Positions 4,036 through 15,955 of a stretch of 64,000 nt of DNA are shown one piece after another. The notes beneath the pieces are model-generated. The model saw only the letters and a program-made list of their open reading frames with translations, had not been told where the DNA came from and searched no databases. How positions within the stretch are numbered: the first letter of the stretch is position 1; the number at the start of each line of letters is the position of its first letter. The translations under genes and the position numbers were made by a program. Source of the DNA: Trinickia caryophylli (GTDB taxonomy: Bacteria > Pseudomonadota > Gammaproteobacteria > Burkholderiales > Burkholderiaceae); assembly GCF_034424545.1 (NCBI RefSeq), contig NZ_CP139971.1, positions 1,054,001-1,118,000 on the forward strand, read 5' to 3'.

Positions 4036-4116
4036 TTAGACACGGTGCGGACGGCTGCCTGCCTCGATGGACGGTCTTCCCGCACCCCACCCCCTTGTAG
4101 AAAGGAGAGAGGGAAA

Positions 4117-6432
4117 ATGCACTCCACAAAACGCCTATGGAAATGGCTCGGGCTGGTCTGCCTGTTGTCGTTTTCCATCCTGCTCTGGCTCGGCAGAGAA
4201 ATCTATCTGGTCGCGCCGCCCATACCGACCAGCGTCACCACTTCGGACGGCACGCTGCTCTTCACGGGCGAGCAGATCAAGCACGGCCAGCAGGTTTGGC
4301 TCTCGGCCGGCGGGCAGCAGCTCGGCTCCGTCTGGGGGCATGGCAGCTATGTCGCGCCCGACTGGTCGGCGGACTGGCTTCACCGCGAAGCCGTTCAATT
4401 GCGCGAAAGCTGGGCACAGAAGCAGTTCGGCAAGTCGTACGACCAGCTTTCCGTCGAGGAGCAAGGCACGCTCGACGCCCGCCTGAAGCACGAAATGCGT
4501 ACGAATACGTATGACGCAGGCAATGGCGGCACGATCACGCTGAGCCCGCAGCGCGCAGCGGTGGTCCGCGAAATCGCGACGCACTACGAAAAGCTCTTCG
4601 GCAGCGATCCGTCGCTCGAGAAGCTGCGCGACGATTACGCGATGGCCACGGGCTCCGTGCCGAACGCCAGCGACCGCGAAGCGCTCGCCGCGTTCTTCTT
4701 CTGGTCCTCGTGGGCGGCAACGACCGACCGTCCGGGCCAAAGCGACATCACTTATACGAGCAACTGGCCGCATGAGCCGCTCGTCGGCAATACGCCCACG
4801 GTGGCAAACGGCATCTGGTCGATCGCAAGCGTGATTCTGCTGCTGGCGGGTATCGCCGCGATGGTCTGGTATCACACCGCGCACCGCGATCATGAAGAGG
4901 AATCGACCGCCACGCCGGCTACCGACCCGCTCTTCGACGTGAAGCCCACGCCGTCGATGCGGGCCACGAAGAAGTACTTCTACGTCGTCATCGGGCTGCT
5001 GCTTGCGCAAGTCGGCATGGGCGCGCTGACCGCGCACTATGCGGTGGAAGGCCACAGCTTCTTCGGCGTGCCGATCGCGGACGTACTGCCGTGGGTGGTC
5101 AGCCGCACGATCCACACGCAGTTCGGCGTGCTCTGGATCGCCACGGCATGGCTCGCCACCGGGCTCTATATTTCGCCGTTGCTCTCCGGGTATGAGCCTC
5201 CGCTGCAAAAACTCGGCGTGAACGTGCTGTTCTGGGCGCTGCTCTTCATCGTGGTCGGATCCACGGCAACCGGCTGGCTCGGTTCGCTCGAGCATGCGGG
5301 TTCCGACTTCTCGTTCTGGATCGGCAATCAAGGCCTCGAGTTCACGAGCATGGGCCGCGTCTGGCAACTGCTGTTGTTCGTCGGTCTGATGTTCTGGCTG
5401 CTGCTGATGGGCCGTGCGTTGATGCCGGCACTGAAGAATCGCAATACGAAAGGCCGCGGGCTCATCGGCATGGTGTTCCTGTCCGCCGCCTGTATCGGCC
5501 TCTTCTACGCCTCTTCGCTCGCCTGGGGCCGCAACACGCACTATTCGATGATCGAGTACTGGAGATGGTGGCTCGTGCACCTGTGGGTCGAAGGCTTCTT
5601 CGAAGTGTTCGCCACGGCTGTCATCGCGCTGATCTTCTCGCGCCTCGGACTCATCCGCATCGAAAGCGCCAATCGCGCCATCGTGGCCGAAACGATCGTC
5701 TTCCTGTTCGGCGGGATCCTCGGTACGCTGCACCACCTGTACTTCACGGGCTCGTCCACGGCCGTGATCGCATTCGGCGCCGTCTTCTCCGCTTTCGAAG
5801 TCGTGCCGCTCGCACTCGTGGGTATCGAAGGCTGGCAGACCTATCGCAAGACGGAAGCCGCGCCTTGGGTCCAAAGCTACAAGTGGGTCATCCTCAGCTT
5901 CGTGGCTGTCGGACTTTGGAACACCGTCGGCGCCGGTCTGCTCGGCTTCACGATCAACCCGCCGATCTCGCTCTACTACGTGCAAGGCCTCAATCTCACC
6001 GCCGCTCACGGCCACGCCGCGCTGTTCGGTGTGTACGGCATGCTCGGTATCGGCCTGATGCTGTTCTGCCTGCGCGGCATGTCCGCACGCGAAGCCTGGG
6101 ACGATGGCCTGCTCAAGCCCGCGTTCTGGATGCTCAACGTCGGCCTCTTCATGATGGTGTTCTTCGCCGTGCTGCCGTCGGGCATCTATGAAGCATGGGC
6201 CAGCGTCGCAAAGGGGCTGTGGTACGCCCGCTCGCCCGAGGTGATCCACTCGCCGATCATGCAGGCATTCGTGTGGGCGCGTGTACCGGGCGACCTCGTG
6301 TTCGCCGTCGGGGTGCTCTACCTCGGCTGGTTCGCACTGCGGCTGCTGCGCCGCGTGCGTCCGAGCGCACCGGAGGAAGCACGCGTGCAGCAAGGCGCGA
6401 ACGCGGCCAAACGCGTCACTCAACGCGCCTGA
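4117..6432 (+). CDS. norB: Quinol-dependent nitric oxide reductase (qNOR, single-subunit NorB/NorZ)
   Basis: 771 residues. It reduces 2 NO to N2O with electrons from quinol at the inner membrane. An N-terminal membrane anchor and a ~200-residue periplasmic region resembling NorC (but without a CxxCH haem motif) precede about 12 membrane segments of the haem-copper oxidase fold. Visible ligands, by analogy with characterised qNORs: His488, His539 and His540 for non-haem iron, Glu492 and Glu561 near the site, and His631 and His633 for the haems ('AAHGHAALFG'). The ATG at 4117 follows a strong AAAGGAGAGAGG ribosome site; an upstream in-frame ATG at 4045 overlaps the regulatory region and is rejected. 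Two NsrR-type boxes lie upstream. Confidence 0.95.
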   Translation: MHSTKRLWKWLGLVCLLSFSILLWLGREIYLVAPPIPTSVTTSDGTLLFTGEQIKHGQQVWLSAGGQQLGSVWGHGSYVAPDWSADWLHREAVQLRESWAQKQFGKSYDQLSVEEQGTLDARLKHEMRTNTYDAGNGGTITLSPQRAAVVREIATHYEKLFGSDPSLEKLRDDYAMATGSVPNASDREALAAFFFWSSWAATTDRPGQSDITYTSNWPHEPLVGNTPTVANGIWSIASVILLLAGIAAMVWYHTAHRDHEEESTATPATDPLFDVKPTPSMRATKKYFYVVIGLLLAQVGMGALTAHYAVEGHSFFGVPIADVLPWVVSRTIHTQFGVLWIATAWLATGLYISPLLSGYEPPLQKLGVNVLFWALLFIVVGSTATGWLGSLEHAGSDFSFWIGNQGLEFTSMGRVWQLLLFVGLMFWLLLMGRALMPALKNRNTKGRGLIGMVFLSAACIGLFYASSLAWGRNTHYSMIEYWRWWLVHLWVEGFFEVFATAVIALIFSRLGLIRIESANRAIVAETIVFLFGGILGTLHHLYFTGSSTAVIAFGAVFSAFEVVPLALVGIEGWQTYRKTEAAPWVQSYKWVILSFVAVGLWNTVGAGLLGFTINPPISLYYVQGLNLTAAHGHAALFGVYGMLGIGLMLFCLRGMSAREAWDDGLLKPAFWMLNVGLFMMVFFAVLPSGIYEAWASVAKGLWYARSPEVIHSPIMQAFVWARVPGDLVFAVGVLYLGWFALRLLRRVRPSAPEEARVQQGANAAKRVTQRA

Positions 6433-10047: not shown

Positions 10048-10061
10048 TTGACTCAAATCAA
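10048..10061. promoter_or_regulatory. FNR/Dnr-type box upstream of nrdD
   Basis: TTGAC-TCAA-ATCAA is a one-mismatch fit to TTGAT-N4-ATCAA. Its centre is about 104 bases upstream of the nrdD start, leaving room for a -41.5 activating position and a leader of about 60 bases. It is the best placed of the four boxes in the window. Confidence 0.7.
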
Positions 10062-10157: not shown

Positions 10158-11945
10158 ATGGAGCAACGGAATGCCGTCCAGGGCCGTGCCGGAAAGGCTT
10201 GTCAAACGGAGCGCGCCACGCTCGCCGCGAGCGGCCCTCAGGTCGAAGTCGCCTCGACCATCGACGAATATCTCGAGCAGCAGGACTGGCGCGTCAACGC
10301 CAACGCCAATCAGGGCTATTCGCTCGGCGGTCTGATTCTCAACGTGTCGGGCAAGGTCATCGCCAACTATTGGCTCAGCCACGTCTACTCGGCCGCCGTC
10401 GGCCGGGCGCACCGCGAAGCCGACATTCACATTCACGATCTGGACATGCTCTCGGGCTACTGCGCCGGCTGGTCGCTGCGTACGCTGCTGACCGAAGGTC
10501 TCAACGGCGTGCCCGGCAAAGTGGAATCGTCGCCGCCGCGCCACATGTCGAGCGCCGTCGCGCAGATCGTCAACTTCCTCGGCACGCTGCAAAACGAATG
10601 GGCCGGCGCGCAGGCATTCAGCTCGTTCGATACCTACATGGCGCCCTTCGTGCGCAAGGACAGCCTCAGCTACAAGCAGGTGCGGCAGCACATGCAGGAA
10701 CTCATCTACAACCTCAACGTACCGTCGCGCTGGGGCACGCAGACGCCGTTCACGAACCTGACGTTCGACTGGGTCTGCCCCGAGGATCTGCGCGAGCAGA
10801 TTCCGATGATCGGCGGCGAGGAGATGCCGTTCAGCTATGGCGAGCTGCAGGCCGAGATGGACATGATCAATCAGGCCTATATCGAAGTCATGCAGGCCGG
10901 CGACGCGAAAGGCCGCGTGTTCACGTTTCCTATCCCGACGTACAACATCACGCCGGACTTCGACTGGGAAAGCCCGAACGCCAAGCGTCTTTTCGAAATG
11001 ACGGCGCGCTACGGTCTGCCGTACTTTCAAAACTTCATCAATTCGGAGTTGAAGCCGAACATGATCCGGTCGATGTGCTGCCGGCTTCAGTTGGACTTGC
11101 GCGAGTTGCTCAAGCGCGGCAACGGGCTTTTCGGCTCGGCCGAGCAAACGGGATCGCTCGGTGTCGTCACAGTCAATTGCGCGCGGCTCGGCTATCTGCA
11201 TGCCGGCGACGAAGCGGCCATGCTCGCACGGCTCGACGAATTGCTCGATCTCGGCAAGGAAAGCCTCGAAATCAAGCGCCGGATCATCCAGCAGCACATG
11301 GACAACGGGCTCTTCCCTTATACGCGCCGCTATCTCGGCACGTTGCGCAATCACTTCTCGACGCTCGGCGTAAACGGCATCAACGAGATGATTCGCAACT
11401 TCTCGGCTGACGAGCACGACATTACGAGCGAGTGGGGCCATGCGTTCGCCGTGCGCGTGCTCGATCACGTTCGCGCCCGAATCCTCGAATACCAGGAGGA
11501 AACGGGTCATATGTACAACCTCGAGGCAACGCCGGCCGAAGGCACGACCTACCGTTTCGCCAAGGAAGACCGCAAGCGCTATCCCGACATCCTGCAGGCC
11601 GGCACGCGCGATATGCCGTACTACACGAATTCGTCGCAGTTGCCCGTCGGCTTCACGGACGATCCGTTCGAAGCGCTCGAGCATCAGGACGATCTGCAGC
11701 GCAAATACACGGGCGGCACCGTTCTGCACCTCTACATGACCGAGCCGCTCTCGACACCCGAGGCCTGCAGCTCGCTCGTGCGCCGCACGCTCGAGCGCTT
11801 TTCTCTGCCCTATATCACCGTGACGCCGACGTTCTCGATCTGCCCGAAGCACGGCTATCTCGCCGGCCGCCACGAATTCTGTCCCAAGTGCGATGAAGAA
11901 ATCGTTCATCGCAAGCTGTCTCAACTTCAAACCGAGGAGTCCTGA
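10158..11945 (+). CDS. nrdD: Anaerobic (class III) ribonucleoside-triphosphate reductase, catalytic part lacking the glycyl-radical domain
   Basis: 595 residues. Reduces ribonucleoside triphosphates to dNTPs without oxygen. The barrel carries the 'HIHDLDMLSGYCAGWSL' region (Cys102, probable active-site Cys), the 'MCCRLQLDLREL' stretch and 'GSLGVVTVNCARLGY'. Near the end is the zinc site 'CPKHGYLAGRHEFCPKC' (Cys562, His565, Cys575, Cys578). The protein stops 17 residues after that site, before the glycyl-radical loop that unsplit NrdD proteins carry. That loop is encoded in the same frame at 11949-12176 after a TGA. GAGGGG precedes the ATG. An FNR-type box lies upstream. Confidence 0.93.
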   Translation: MEQRNAVQGRAGKACQTERATLAASGPQVEVASTIDEYLEQQDWRVNANANQGYSLGGLILNVSGKVIANYWLSHVYSAAVGRAHREADIHIHDLDMLSGYCAGWSLRTLLTEGLNGVPGKVESSPPRHMSSAVAQIVNFLGTLQNEWAGAQAFSSFDTYMAPFVRKDSLSYKQVRQHMQELIYNLNVPSRWGTQTPFTNLTFDWVCPEDLREQIPMIGGEEMPFSYGELQAEMDMINQAYIEVMQAGDAKGRVFTFPIPTYNITPDFDWESPNAKRLFEMTARYGLPYFQNFINSELKPNMIRSMCCRLQLDLRELLKRGNGLFGSAEQTGSLGVVTVNCARLGYLHAGDEAAMLARLDELLDLGKESLEIKRRIIQQHMDNGLFPYTRRYLGTLRNHFSTLGVNGINEMIRNFSADEHDITSEWGHAFAVRVLDHVRARILEYQEETGHMYNLEATPAEGTTYRFAKEDRKRYPDILQAGTRDMPYYTNSSQLPVGFTDDPFEALEHQDDLQRKYTGGTVLHLYMTEPLSTPEACSSLVRRTLERFSLPYITVTPTFSICPKHGYLAGRHEFCPKCDEEIVHRKLSQLQTEES

Positions 11946-11948
11946 ACC

Positions 11949-12176
11949 ATGACGATCGACCGCATCCAAGCAGCCCCCGCCGCCCGCATCGCGCTCGCCG
12001 ACGAAGAACGGCAACCGTGCGAAATCTGGACGCGCGTGATGGGTTATCACCGGCCGGTATCGTCGTTCAACACCGGCAAGAAAGGCGAATTCCACGAGCG
12101 CAAGTACTTCGTCGAAGCGCGCACGGCCGTGGCCGCCGCGCCATGCGACGAAGAGGAGATCTCGCTTGCGGCCTGA
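11949..12176 (+). CDS. nrdD: Separate glycyl-radical domain of the class III ribonucleotide reductase
   Basis: 75 residues containing the NrdD C-terminal signature 'RVMGYHRPVSSFNTGKKGEF', with Gly32 as candidate radical glycine. It is in the same frame as the preceding nrdD part, separated by one TGA and one ACC codon. GAGGAG, ending 11 bases before its ATG, gives it its own ribosome site, so it is probably made as an independent subunit that docks on the catalytic part, as GrcA/YfiD does for pyruvate formate-lyase. Alternatives are stop-codon read-through or a recent nonsense mutation in the linker. The 3' end overlaps the nrdG start. Confidence 0.85.
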   Translation: MTIDRIQAAPAARIALADEERQPCEIWTRVMGYHRPVSSFNTGKKGEFHERKYFVEARTAVAAAPCDEEEISLAA

Positions 12177-12912
12177 GTGCTTCGAAGCCTCGCGCGTGCA
12201 GGAGCTGAACCGGCCCCGCCTGCTCAAAGTGGGCGGGGTCGTGCCGTTCACCGCCACCGACTACCCCGGCAAGCTGGCCGCCGTGGTCTTCGTGCAAGGG
12301 TGCCCGTGGCGGTGCGGGTATTGCCACAATCCGCACCTGCAGCCGCGCACGAAGACGGGTGCCGTCGAATGGCAGCATGTCGTGCGTTTTCTCAGGCGGC
12401 GCGTGGGGCTCGTCGATGCGGTGGTGTTCAGCGGCGGCGAACCGACCGCCGACCCCGCCATCGTCGAGGCGATACGCGAAGTACGCGCCTTGGGCTTCGC
12501 AATCGGGCTTCACAGTGGTGGCACGCATCCGAACCGGTTTGCAGCGGTTCTGCCCTTGGTCGACTGGGTCGGCCTCGACATCAAGGCACCTTTCGACGAT
12601 TACGAACGCGTCACGCGTATCCGCGGCAGCGGCGAGCCTGCGCGGCGATGCCTGGAGACACTGCTCGCCAGCGGCGTCGATTACGAATGCCGCACGACGC
12701 TCCATCCCGGTCTGCTGCCGGAAGACGATATTCTGCGGCTCGCCGGCACGCTTGCCGACATGGGCGTGAAGCGCTACGCGTTACAGATCTTTCGCAAGGA
12801 AGGATGCCGCGACGATGCGCTCAATGCCGCCCTCACCCGCGGCTACCCGAGCGAAGCGCTCGTCGCTGCAGTGGGCCGCCGGTTTCCCGAGTTCACGGTA
12901 CGGCGCGGCTGA
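12166..12912 (+). CDS. nrdG: Anaerobic ribonucleotide reductase activating protein (radical SAM)
   Basis: 248 residues. Uses SAM and a [4Fe-4S] cluster to put the glycyl radical on NrdD. The radical SAM motif is 'CPWRCGYC' (Cys46, Cys50, Cys53), preceded by the 'FTATDYPGKLAAVVFVQG' strand, with 'FSGGEPT' (SAM-binding GGE) further on. It resembles the NrdG2 subfamily. The start is the TTG at 12166, 8 bases after AGAGGAG and overlapping the end of the glycyl-radical ORF by 11 bases, so translation is probably coupled. It closes the nrdD-nrdD'-nrdG operon. Confidence 0.9.
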   Translation: MRPECFEASRVQELNRPRLLKVGGVVPFTATDYPGKLAAVVFVQGCPWRCGYCHNPHLQPRTKTGAVEWQHVVRFLRRRVGLVDAVVFSGGEPTADPAIVEAIREVRALGFAIGLHSGGTHPNRFAAVLPLVDWVGLDIKAPFDDYERVTRIRGSGEPARRCLETLLASGVDYECRTTLHPGLLPEDDILRLAGTLADMGVKRYALQIFRKEGCRDDALNAALTRGYPSEALVAAVGRRFPEFTVRRG

Positions 12913-13506: not shown

Positions 13507-13971
13507 TTACTGCTGTGCGGCCCCGCGCCGGAACATTTTCGCGGGTGCGAAACGTTCGAGCGAGAGCAGCGACCAATCGAGGGCGTCGAGCGAATTCTTC
13601 ACGATCAGCCCCAGTTCGGTATCGCCCTCCATCGTCAGCCGGCGGCTGAAGAAAAGCGTGTCCGGATCTTCGGCGCGGCGCGCCAGCAGCATGAAGTCGT
13701 AGGCATTCGCGCCGATCGTGAGTGCGACCTCGCCGCGATGACGCGCGGGCCGGAACGTGCCGCCGGTGCAGACGAAATCGAACGCCAGCCGGGCGTCGCG
13801 CACCTCGATGCGCAGCGCCTTGCCCTCGAGCAGGGCCATCGCATCGGCCGGCAAATGCCGTGTCAACGTGAGATTGAGGCCGCCGACGAACAGCACGGAC
13901 CCGGGAAAGGGCGGCAGCTTCGACAGCACCTTGCCGACGAATCCCGGCAATGCGAATGCGGCATCGGTCAT
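13507..13971 (-). CDS. ubiT: UbiT, SCP2-type lipid carrier for O2-independent ubiquinone synthesis
   Basis: 154 residues with an SCP2 sterol-carrier fold ('ALLEGKALRIEVRDARLAFDF', later 'ANAYDFMLLARRAEDPDTLF'). UbiT is the anaerobic counterpart of UbiJ: it binds the hydrophobic quinone precursor for the hydroxylation steps done without O2. The ATG at 13971 follows AGGAG by 7 bases; a TTG one codon earlier is less likely. It starts 18 bases after the ubiV stop. The assignment rests on both the domain and the ubiU-ubiV neighbours. Confidence 0.88.
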   Translation of the reverse strand: MTDAAFALPGFVGKVLSKLPPFPGSVLFVGGLNLTLTRHLPADAMALLEGKALRIEVRDARLAFDFVCTGGTFRPARHRGEVALTIGANAYDFMLLARRAEDPDTLFFSRRLTMEGDTELGLIVKNSLDALDWSLLSLERFAPAKMFRRGAAQQ

Positions 13972-13989
13972 CAAATACTCCTTGTGAGG

Positions 13990-14877
13990 TCAGCCCGCGT
14001 GGCGAGCGAGGCCGGCCATGCCGTGCCAATAGCCGTCGCAATGCGCCTGCGGCATCAGTCCGTTCATCGACGAAAGTGCTTCGCCTGCGTCGAGGCGGCC
14101 ATCGACAACCTCCCGGAACAGCGTGGCGATTTCGCCCATATGCTGCGATTGCGGGCTCAACCGCAGAACGTCGACGCCGAGCGATCGCATTTCGTCGATC
14201 GATTCGACGAGATTGCACACGCGCGCCGACTGCGTGGAGATGCCGTTGAAGACGAGGAACGCCTCGCCCTCGCGCGTGTTGAGTTGCAACCCGTCGGGGT
14301 GCTCGAGGCAAACGTATTGGCAGTTGTCGCGCGGCAGGTTGCGATGGCGTGCTGTGAAGCAGCGCGCAGAGAATGCGAGCGGCATGCGGCCGTAGGCGAA
14401 AACTTCGGTTTCGATGCCTGACGGGCGATCGGCCAGGATTTGCGCCAACCCGTCACGGCTCATTTCGAGCGGCGCGACCCATCGCTTCGCGCCGAGTTCG
14501 GCCAGCAGCGCCAGCGTGGGTGGGTTGTACACGTTGATCCAGGGGCCTGCCACGAACGGCGCGCCCTGCACACAGTGCACGGCGCCCATGTCGTTGGCCT
14601 CGACGGCGTAGCGTCCGTTTCCCGCCACCTGCCGCAGCGTGGTGAGATCCTTGCCAGATTCGAGCAGCACCTGCGTCGAGAGCACGACCTCCTTGCCTGC
14701 TTGCGCAAGCATGGCCGCGATCTCGATCCAGTCCGCCAGGCGAAGCTCGTGGCGACGCGAGCAGACTGTCTCGCCGAGGTAAACGATGTCGACAGGTGCG
14801 CTGCTCATCGCCTCGTAAAACTGCAAGGTCGCGATGCGCGACCAATAGTATTGAAGGGGGCCCAATGCGATTTTCAC
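13990..14877 (-). CDS. ubiV: UbiV, U32-peptidase-like Fe-S subunit of the anaerobic ubiquinone hydroxylase
   Basis: 295 residues from a GTG start ('KIALGPLQYYW' follows), the same length as characterised UbiV. Cys39, Cys173, Cys186 and Cys190 match in spacing the four [4Fe-4S] ligands known for E. coli UbiV. With UbiU it catalyses O2-independent hydroxylations of the ubiquinone ring, using prephenate as oxygen donor. I chose GTG 14877 (GGAG upstream) rather than the ATG at 14946, because that start would overlap ubiU and add a tail absent from the family. Confidence 0.92.
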   Translation of the reverse strand: MKIALGPLQYYWSRIATLQFYEAMSSAPVDIVYLGETVCSRRHELRLADWIEIAAMLAQAGKEVVLSTQVLLESGKDLTTLRQVAGNGRYAVEANDMGAVHCVQGAPFVAGPWINVYNPPTLALLAELGAKRWVAPLEMSRDGLAQILADRPSGIETEVFAYGRMPLAFSARCFTARHRNLPRDNCQYVCLEHPDGLQLNTREGEAFLVFNGISTQSARVCNLVESIDEMRSLGVDVLRLSPQSQHMGEIATLFREVVDGRLDAGEALSSMNGLMPQAHCDGYWHGMAGLARHAG

Positions 14878-14920
14878 TATGCCGGCTCCAGCTCGCGGGC
14901 GCTTGCGTGCGCCCGCTTCG

Positions 14921-15955
14921 TCATTTCCATGGGCGGTGGTAGGCACCGAGCGTGTGCTGCTGGCCTTCCGCCACTTTGTCGAGGCCCGCCATCCACGTGG
15001 TTTTCACGCTGTAGCGCTGCGCGTTGGCGAGACACTGATCGATCGCCTCGCGCCACACGCGCGTCACCTGCGCCACATAGGCGGGGCTGCGCTGCCGCCC
15101 TTCGATCTTGATCGCGCGCACGCCGATCTGCCTGAGGCGAGGGAGAAGCTCGAGCGTATTGAGGCTCGTCGGCTCTTCGATCGCGTAATAGTGCTCGTCG
15201 GCCACCTCGAAGCGGCCCTTGCAGATCGTCGGATAGCCGGCGTTCTCGTCGTCGGCGTAGCGATCGATGAGCACGCCGTTCAGGCGCGAATCCATGCCCT
15301 CGTCGCTCTTTTGCCAACGCACGAACTTGGCGGGCGAACATACGCCGTGCGTATTAGGCGATTCGCCCGTGACATACGACGAGAGCGCACACCGTCCTTC
15401 CACCATGACGCACAGGCTGCCGAATCCGAACACCTCGATTTCGACCGCCGTGTTCTCCGTCACCTGCTCGACCTGCGTGAGCGATAGCACGCGCGGCAGC
15501 ACGGCACGGTTGATACCGAACTGCTCGTGATAGAAATTGATGGCCTCGTAGTTGGTTGCCGAGCCTTGCACCGACAGATGCAGCCTCAATTGCGGATAGC
15601 GGTCGCGCGCATAGCGCATGAGGCCGGCATCGGCCATGATCACGGCATCTATCTGCGAGCGCGCCGCACGGTCGACTGCCTCGCGCCAGATCGTCCATGC
15701 GTTCGGCTGCGGGTAGGTATTGAGCGCGAGAAAGACTTTCCTGCCTTTGTCATGGGCATAGTCGATACCCGTTCGAATGGCCTTCTCGTCGAAATTGAGG
15801 CCCGCGAAATTGCGCGCATTGGTGGCGTCGCGAAACCCGAGATACACACAGTCCGCGCCGTTGTCGATCGCAGCCTTCAGCGCAGGCAGGCTGCCTGCCG
15901 GGCAAACGAGCTCGATCGGCGGCGAATCGTTGCTTGTCGTATTGCTTGGCGTCAT
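14921..15955 (-). CDS. ubiU: UbiU, U32-peptidase-like Fe-S subunit of the anaerobic ubiquinone hydroxylase
   Basis: 344 residues, against about 331 in E. coli; the extra residues are an N-terminal Ser/Thr/Asn-rich leader before 'IELVCPAGSLPALKAAI'. Cys182, Cys189, Cys206 and Cys245 have the 7-17-39 spacing of the known UbiU cluster ligands. It forms a heterodimer with UbiV. ATG 15955 is preferred; an in-frame ATG at 15979 adds eight unsupported residues. It heads the ubiU-ubiV-ubiT-DGC operon. An FNR-type box 110 bases upstream (16065-16078) should drive it under low O2. Confidence 0.92.
   Translation of the reverse strand: MTPSNTTSNDSPPIELVCPAGSLPALKAAIDNGADCVYLGFRDATNARNFAGLNFDEKAIRTGIDYAHDKGRKVFLALNTYPQPNAWTIWREAVDRAARSQIDAVIMADAGLMRYARDRYPQLRLHLSVQGSATNYEAINFYHEQFGINRAVLPRVLSLTQVEQVTENTAVEIEVFGFGSLCVMVEGRCALSSYVTGESPNTHGVCSPAKFVRWQKSDEGMDSRLNGVLIDRYADDENAGYPTICKGRFEVADEHYYAIEEPTSLNTLELLPRLRQIGVRAIKIEGRQRSPAYVAQVTRVWREAIDQCLANAQRYSVKTTWMAGLDKVAEGQQHTLGAYHRPWK

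Follow-up and report, generated by a model that had tools for sequence, protein, structure and literature searches.

The class III ribonucleotide reductase of Trinickia caryophylli appears to be made as two polypeptides, a catalytic chain of 595 residues without the glycyl-radical loop, and a chain of 75 residues, encoded immediately downstream, that carries it. The predicted two-chain arrangement is real, conserved and widespread. We regard a two-chain enzyme as very likely, a judgment that holds jointly for readings with and without replacement of the small chain. Our main reading, to which we assign a probability of roughly 60%, is that this is a working class III reductase of two obligate chains, whose 8-kDa radical-bearing part could be replaced after oxygen damage.

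The stretch analyzed (the window) comprises 64,000 nucleotides of contig NZ_CP139971.1, and the FNR-type box, the two nrdD ORFs, the ribosome site and nrdG described here lie on its forward strand. The large nrdD ORF (10158..11945) runs from ATG 10158 to the TGA at 11943-11945, 17 residues beyond its zinc site. After the single codon ACC, and in the same frame, ATG 11949 opens the small ORF of 75 codons (11949..12176, ending with TGA at 12174-12176), which carries RVMGYHRPVSSFNTGKKGEF. The sequence GAGGAG (11934..11939), which ends 9 nt before this ATG, probably serves as the ribosome site for the small chain. The gene for the radical-SAM activase NrdG (12166..12912; above cut-off for NCBIfam TIGR02495, NrdG2, E = 4.5e-60) starts with TTG at 12166, overlapping the end of the small ORF at its stop (12176). 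When the coordinates were re-read, the initial annotation was borne out on the in-frame stop followed by an ORF with a radical signature, on a ribosome site belonging to that ORF, and on the coupling of its end to nrdG. By analogy with the E. coli and T4 enzymes we take the G of RVMGY to be the radical glycine, i.e., Gly32 of the small chain (codon 12042-12044); Cys24 is encoded at 12018-12020. An FNR-type box, TTGACTCAAATCAA (10048..10061), lies 96 nt upstream of the nrdD start and matches TTGAYNNNNRTCAA exactly. This exact box was found only once in the 64 kb, occurred at least once in 5 of 100 shuffles, and was present in only 17 of 76 relatives.

Against the Pfam model PF13597, which has 562 positions and a cut-off of 26.2 bits, the large chain matched positions 2-532 (586.9 bits, E = 5.8e-176) and the small chain positions 531-562 (32.7 bits, E = 4.2e-8), so that together they tile the family model once. 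The large chain also scored 1059.4 bits against NF006126 (cut-off 548), while the small chain, aligned on its own to the solved T. maritima enzyme, gave a weak 1.7 bits. Computed molecular weights are 67.4 kDa for the large chain and 8.4 kDa for the small one. With a TGA and a new ATG between them, the glycyl-radical loop is encoded by a separate small ORF and not as part of the same polypeptide as the barrel. The cut falls between the zinc site and the loop. What had been described as a detached glycyl-radical domain is therefore detached as regards the loop, but the zinc site (CPKH...CPKC), which the accessible part of PMC11226230 counts to that domain in a fused enzyme, is retained by the large chain. 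Single-chain NrdD enzymes (T. maritima 4COI/4U3E, 8P23, 9D3X, T4 1H78) share with this system the match to the whole length of the family model, the type of activase, the conserved cysteines and the zinc site. In these proteins, however, the single chain ends with the radical loop, whereas here a gene of its own, with a separate start, encodes the loop together with an additional cysteine. The fused relatives presumably work as one chain. Over 10158-10260 the large chain has no ATP-cone; this domain (PF03477) is present in the NrdD of C. necator H16.

It could be argued that the small ORF is a mere spare part like GrcA/YfiD of pyruvate formate-lyase, and that some other, full-length protein does the work. 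There is a precedent in that GrcA is, in the available sections of PMC8683613, a detached glycyl-radical domain able to serve its partner in trans, although the same sections report spare parts as validated for pyruvate formate-lyase only. However, the host genome (6.59 Mb in two contigs) yielded one NRDD pair and two PF02867 reductases, with no intact NrdD or other NRDD match besides the split pair; no PF01228 protein was found in it, and no other glycyl-radical protein was seen. GrcA as described in those sections rescues a complete, damaged enzyme, whereas the large chain adjoining the small ORF has no radical loop at all, and a Pfam scan of the small ORF returned NRDD alone, with no PF01228. 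We consider the spare-part explanation very unlikely.

The split was then sought in the best 80 of 589 relatives found by a contig scan, those that are named being Trinickia and Paraburkholderia. In 79 it was present, none was fused, and the remaining one (L058) was cut by a contig end; the alternative that the relatives have an uninterrupted gene, with the stop only here, thus fails. Within the genus, the nrdD system was found in 7 of 11 genomes and was split in all seven. The two-subunit reductase proposed in the initial annotation is supported by these results. The small ORFs of the 79 relatives are distributed over the three frames as 22, 18 and 39, with 57 in a frame other than that of the large ORF. 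A stop codon that is read through or recoded to give a single chain would fit the in-frame stop seen here and also in L021, L023 and L025, but these frames rule out read-through as the general mechanism, and by this comparison the in-frame TGA of this locus is incidental. The small ORF moreover has its own ribosome site and ATG, and unlinked copies exist (see below), which together make read-through extremely unlikely. In relatives, GGAG, GAGG or AGGA preceded the nearest upstream ATG of the small ORF in 61 of 78 cases; a motif-aware choice of start gave 78 of 79, against 116 of 2139 control ATGs, but 61 of 78 is the fairer figure. An nrdG-like ORF lay downstream in 78 of the 79, within about 300 nt in 77.

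A sequencing error or a decayed gene has the in-frame stop itself in its favor and nothing further. The same split occurs in separately sequenced relatives, and dN/dS across 40-42 codons of the small-chain core, compared with six relatives, was about 0.07-0.12; values near 0.1 indicate purifying selection on this core, so that the small ORF is more than a chance frame. Error or decay is therefore scarcely conceivable, and the error, read-through and pseudogene explanations were all dropped on frame, linkage and selection. That the split recurs in many other bacteria also makes it look like a real design rather than a broken gene.

How widespread the split is, a question that the initial annotation had left open, can now be answered in part: it occurs in Burkholderiales, Pseudomonas, Chromatiales-type bacteria, alphaproteobacteria, a Campylobacterota plasmid and two of three viral contigs. 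Among 397 Pseudomonadota genomes, 66 had an NRDD match, and in 16 of these the radical loop formed a separate row, 15 as a separate ORF nearby and one (G044) 9.5 kb away, all 16 having been inspected. Another genome, whose row spans two TAA codons (G238), is also split. In G294, whose NrdD is only distantly similar to that of the window, a stop is followed by a 12-nt gap with AAAGGG and then by a 60-codon ORF with RRITGYLVGTLDRFNNAKRAEEK (read by eye, with a family match); the rows of G357 resemble those of G294. The count is thus at least 18 of 66, two inspected genomes (G371 and G173) being fused, G331 a weak fragment, and the remainder judged from the match table only.

In the family of G198, 37 of 99 genomes had an NRDD match and none had an uninterrupted match to the whole model. 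The loop was in its own frame in 23 and in the frame of the large ORF in 9 (only G198 was inspected, and it is split), while 4 gave one row with internal stops, as taken from the table, and 1 was a fragment. The best 30 loci from the order of G444 were split in 29 cases and fused in 1; those from the class of G443 comprised 24 split, 3 fused and 3 without a loop nearby; and those from the phylum of G445 comprised 7 split, 21 fused and 2 without a C-terminus. Named proteins similar to the small chain of G422, which belongs to the group of G198, among the best 120 of 2004, came from Pseudomonas chlororaphis, P. putida, P. donghuensis and Stutzerimonas. A Sulfuricurvum plasmid carries a split form, and the forms on plasmids of Acidiphilium, Actinomyces oris and Geoalkalibacter are fused. 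The third viral contig (L271) showed no loop in the stretch available. In all, 3413 candidate proteins of similar length matched the small chain at E values up to 1e-3.

Other kinds of interruption were seen as well. Two genomes (G1193 and G1117; loci L288 and L289) have intein-like nrdD insertions at query residue 195/196, L289 with a second one after GYC, and a break at residue 195 was present in about two dozen genomes drawn from the order of G444. On a plasmid of Thiothrix fructosivorans (L266) the large chain is spread over two frames and lacks a CDS feature in the record, the small chain and nrdG being annotated. A phage-like NrdD (MT835493.1; L267) is fused and, as read by eye, has a thioredoxin-like tail beyond the radical loop. 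Phage nrdD genes in more than one coding piece are known, with six cases reported in the portion of PMC3653736 available. Those splits are described there as largely due to introns, inteins and homing endonucleases, whereas the 3-nt gap here holds none of these.

In four genomes (G044, G720, G746 and G550) no radical-piece gene was found beside nrdD. The small-chain gene was instead 9.5 kb away in G044 and on another contig in the other three, which are the loci from the class of G443 counted above as having no loop nearby. By eye, an nrdG-like ORF follows the unlinked small gene in G044 and G720; none was found within the stretch read in G746 and G550. The two genes are independent of each other. 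One further genome (G516; L264) has, besides the nrdD-adjacent ORF, a second radical-loop ORF, divergent in sequence and located on a different contig, at 22.5 bits and so below the cut-off.

In a careful tree of 80 NrdD cores, whose bootstrap had not settled, we counted 10 changes between split and fused states. Because at least 7 for the fused label are required by branches with good support, it is firm that the states, as reconstructed, changed repeatedly. On a quick, hand-rooted tree, a fused and a split root were equal in cost at 10 each, and with unequal costs the counts ranged between 2 splits with 8 fusions and 9 splits with 4 fusions. Placing all split rows in one clade was rejected (p = 2.5e-31, quick tree), a rejection that comes too easily because 5 of its 29 other rows (4 with unlinked genes and 1 at the end of a contig) had not been scored as fused. 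A single clade of the four scattered fused rows was not rejected, either on the quick tree (p = 0.82, where the free search missed a better tree) or on the careful one (p = 0.34). The position of G294 outside the tree argues for a separate split.

A cysteine just before the radical loop was present in 154 of 154 small chains of the main clade, but in only 2 of 24 fused proteins outside an inner fused group (duplicates excluded). Its position relative to the Trp of WTRVMGY is three residues upstream in 150 of the small chains and one residue upstream in the remaining 4. By group, the same cysteine occurred in all 9 inner fused proteins, in none of the 3 mid fused ones, in 2 of the 21 deep fused ones and in 1 of the 3 deep split ones. 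The tail of the large chain beyond the zinc site is also conserved, with Asp after the last Cys in 152 of 155 (2 rows were missed by the pattern). Some inner fused proteins retain the lead-in of the small chain, e.g., ALKDEERTRCEVWTRVMGY in L234, which suggests that they are re-fused split forms.

Around the system in the window are a NorB-type nitric oxide reductase gene, a Crp/Fnr-type domain, an SCP2-domain ORF and two U32-peptidase ORFs, the nitric oxide reductase and the SCP2/U32-peptidase ORFs flanking it at 4045-6432 and 13507-15889. The SCP2-domain and U32-peptidase ORFs resemble ubiT, ubiV and ubiU. In C. necator H16 the split pair is encoded on pHG1, where a nitric oxide reductase gene precedes it; 142 nt separate the large gene from the small one, which follows AAGGAG. 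The computed mass of its large chain is 76.19 kDa, and a 76.2-kDa NrdD was reportedly described by Siedow in 1999. According to the accessible text of PMC2864759, nrdDG of C. necator H16 is essential for complete denitrification, B12 counteracts the defect seen in a strain lacking pHG1, and nrdDG of C. metallidurans is Rmet_5137 plus Rmet_5139. We found the latter locus (L137) to be split, so the locus number skipped between the two may be the small chain.

How might such an enzyme work? The large chain would provide the nucleotide sites, the catalytic cysteines and the zinc site, and the small chain would bind to it, placing its RVMGY loop into the barrel. The neighboring NrdG would put the glycyl radical on the small chain, from which the radical would pass to the finger-loop cysteine of the large chain at each turnover. 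In glycyl radical enzymes, oxygen breaks the chain at the radical glycine, and damage would then be limited to the 8-kDa chain, of which a fresh copy would take the place while the 67-kDa body survives. Such replacement, which the initial annotation had also suggested, is plausible.

The chief competing explanation is an obligate two-chain enzyme without replacement, in which the small chain stays bound and the split is neutral or serves dosage or coupling to NrdG. The small gene lies between nrdD and nrdG in 77 of 79 relatives, at a median gap of 21 nt, as would be expected of a subunit made in stoichiometric amounts. The split class II enzyme of P. aeruginosa, in the available part of PMC4520616, is a tight complex. 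This NrdJa/NrdJb enzyme resembles the present one in being a reductase in two chains from one operon in Proteobacteria; as described there, however, NrdJb carries the thiol exchange and not the radical, and the cofactor is B12. The repeated changes between split and fused states and the unlinked small genes weakly hint that separateness is of use, and we hold the no-replacement explanation to be rather unlikely. Returning to the replaceable small chain, a broader version can be put forward only tentatively: the enzyme would be a permanent body with a consumable radical cartridge. This dedicated exchangeable subunit would be present in a substantial fraction of class III reductases from facultative anaerobes and would have evolved more than once, and the added cysteine might lock the chains together or sense redox state.

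The NCBI annotation already labels the small protein nrdD, anaerobic ribonucleoside-triphosphate reductase. No description of a two-chain class III reductase was found in the accessible portions of the open-licence PMC literature, nor did that literature yield biochemical work on a split class III enzyme. Many denitrifiers and facultative anaerobes seem to depend on a two-chain glycyl radical enzyme for the anaerobic synthesis of DNA precursors, whereas the enzyme described in the papers, in the parts available, consists of one chain. Cloning nrdD and nrdG alone from such organisms would omit the radical subunit. Finally, split NrdD would offer a natural test of glycyl-radical domain swapping after oxygen damage.
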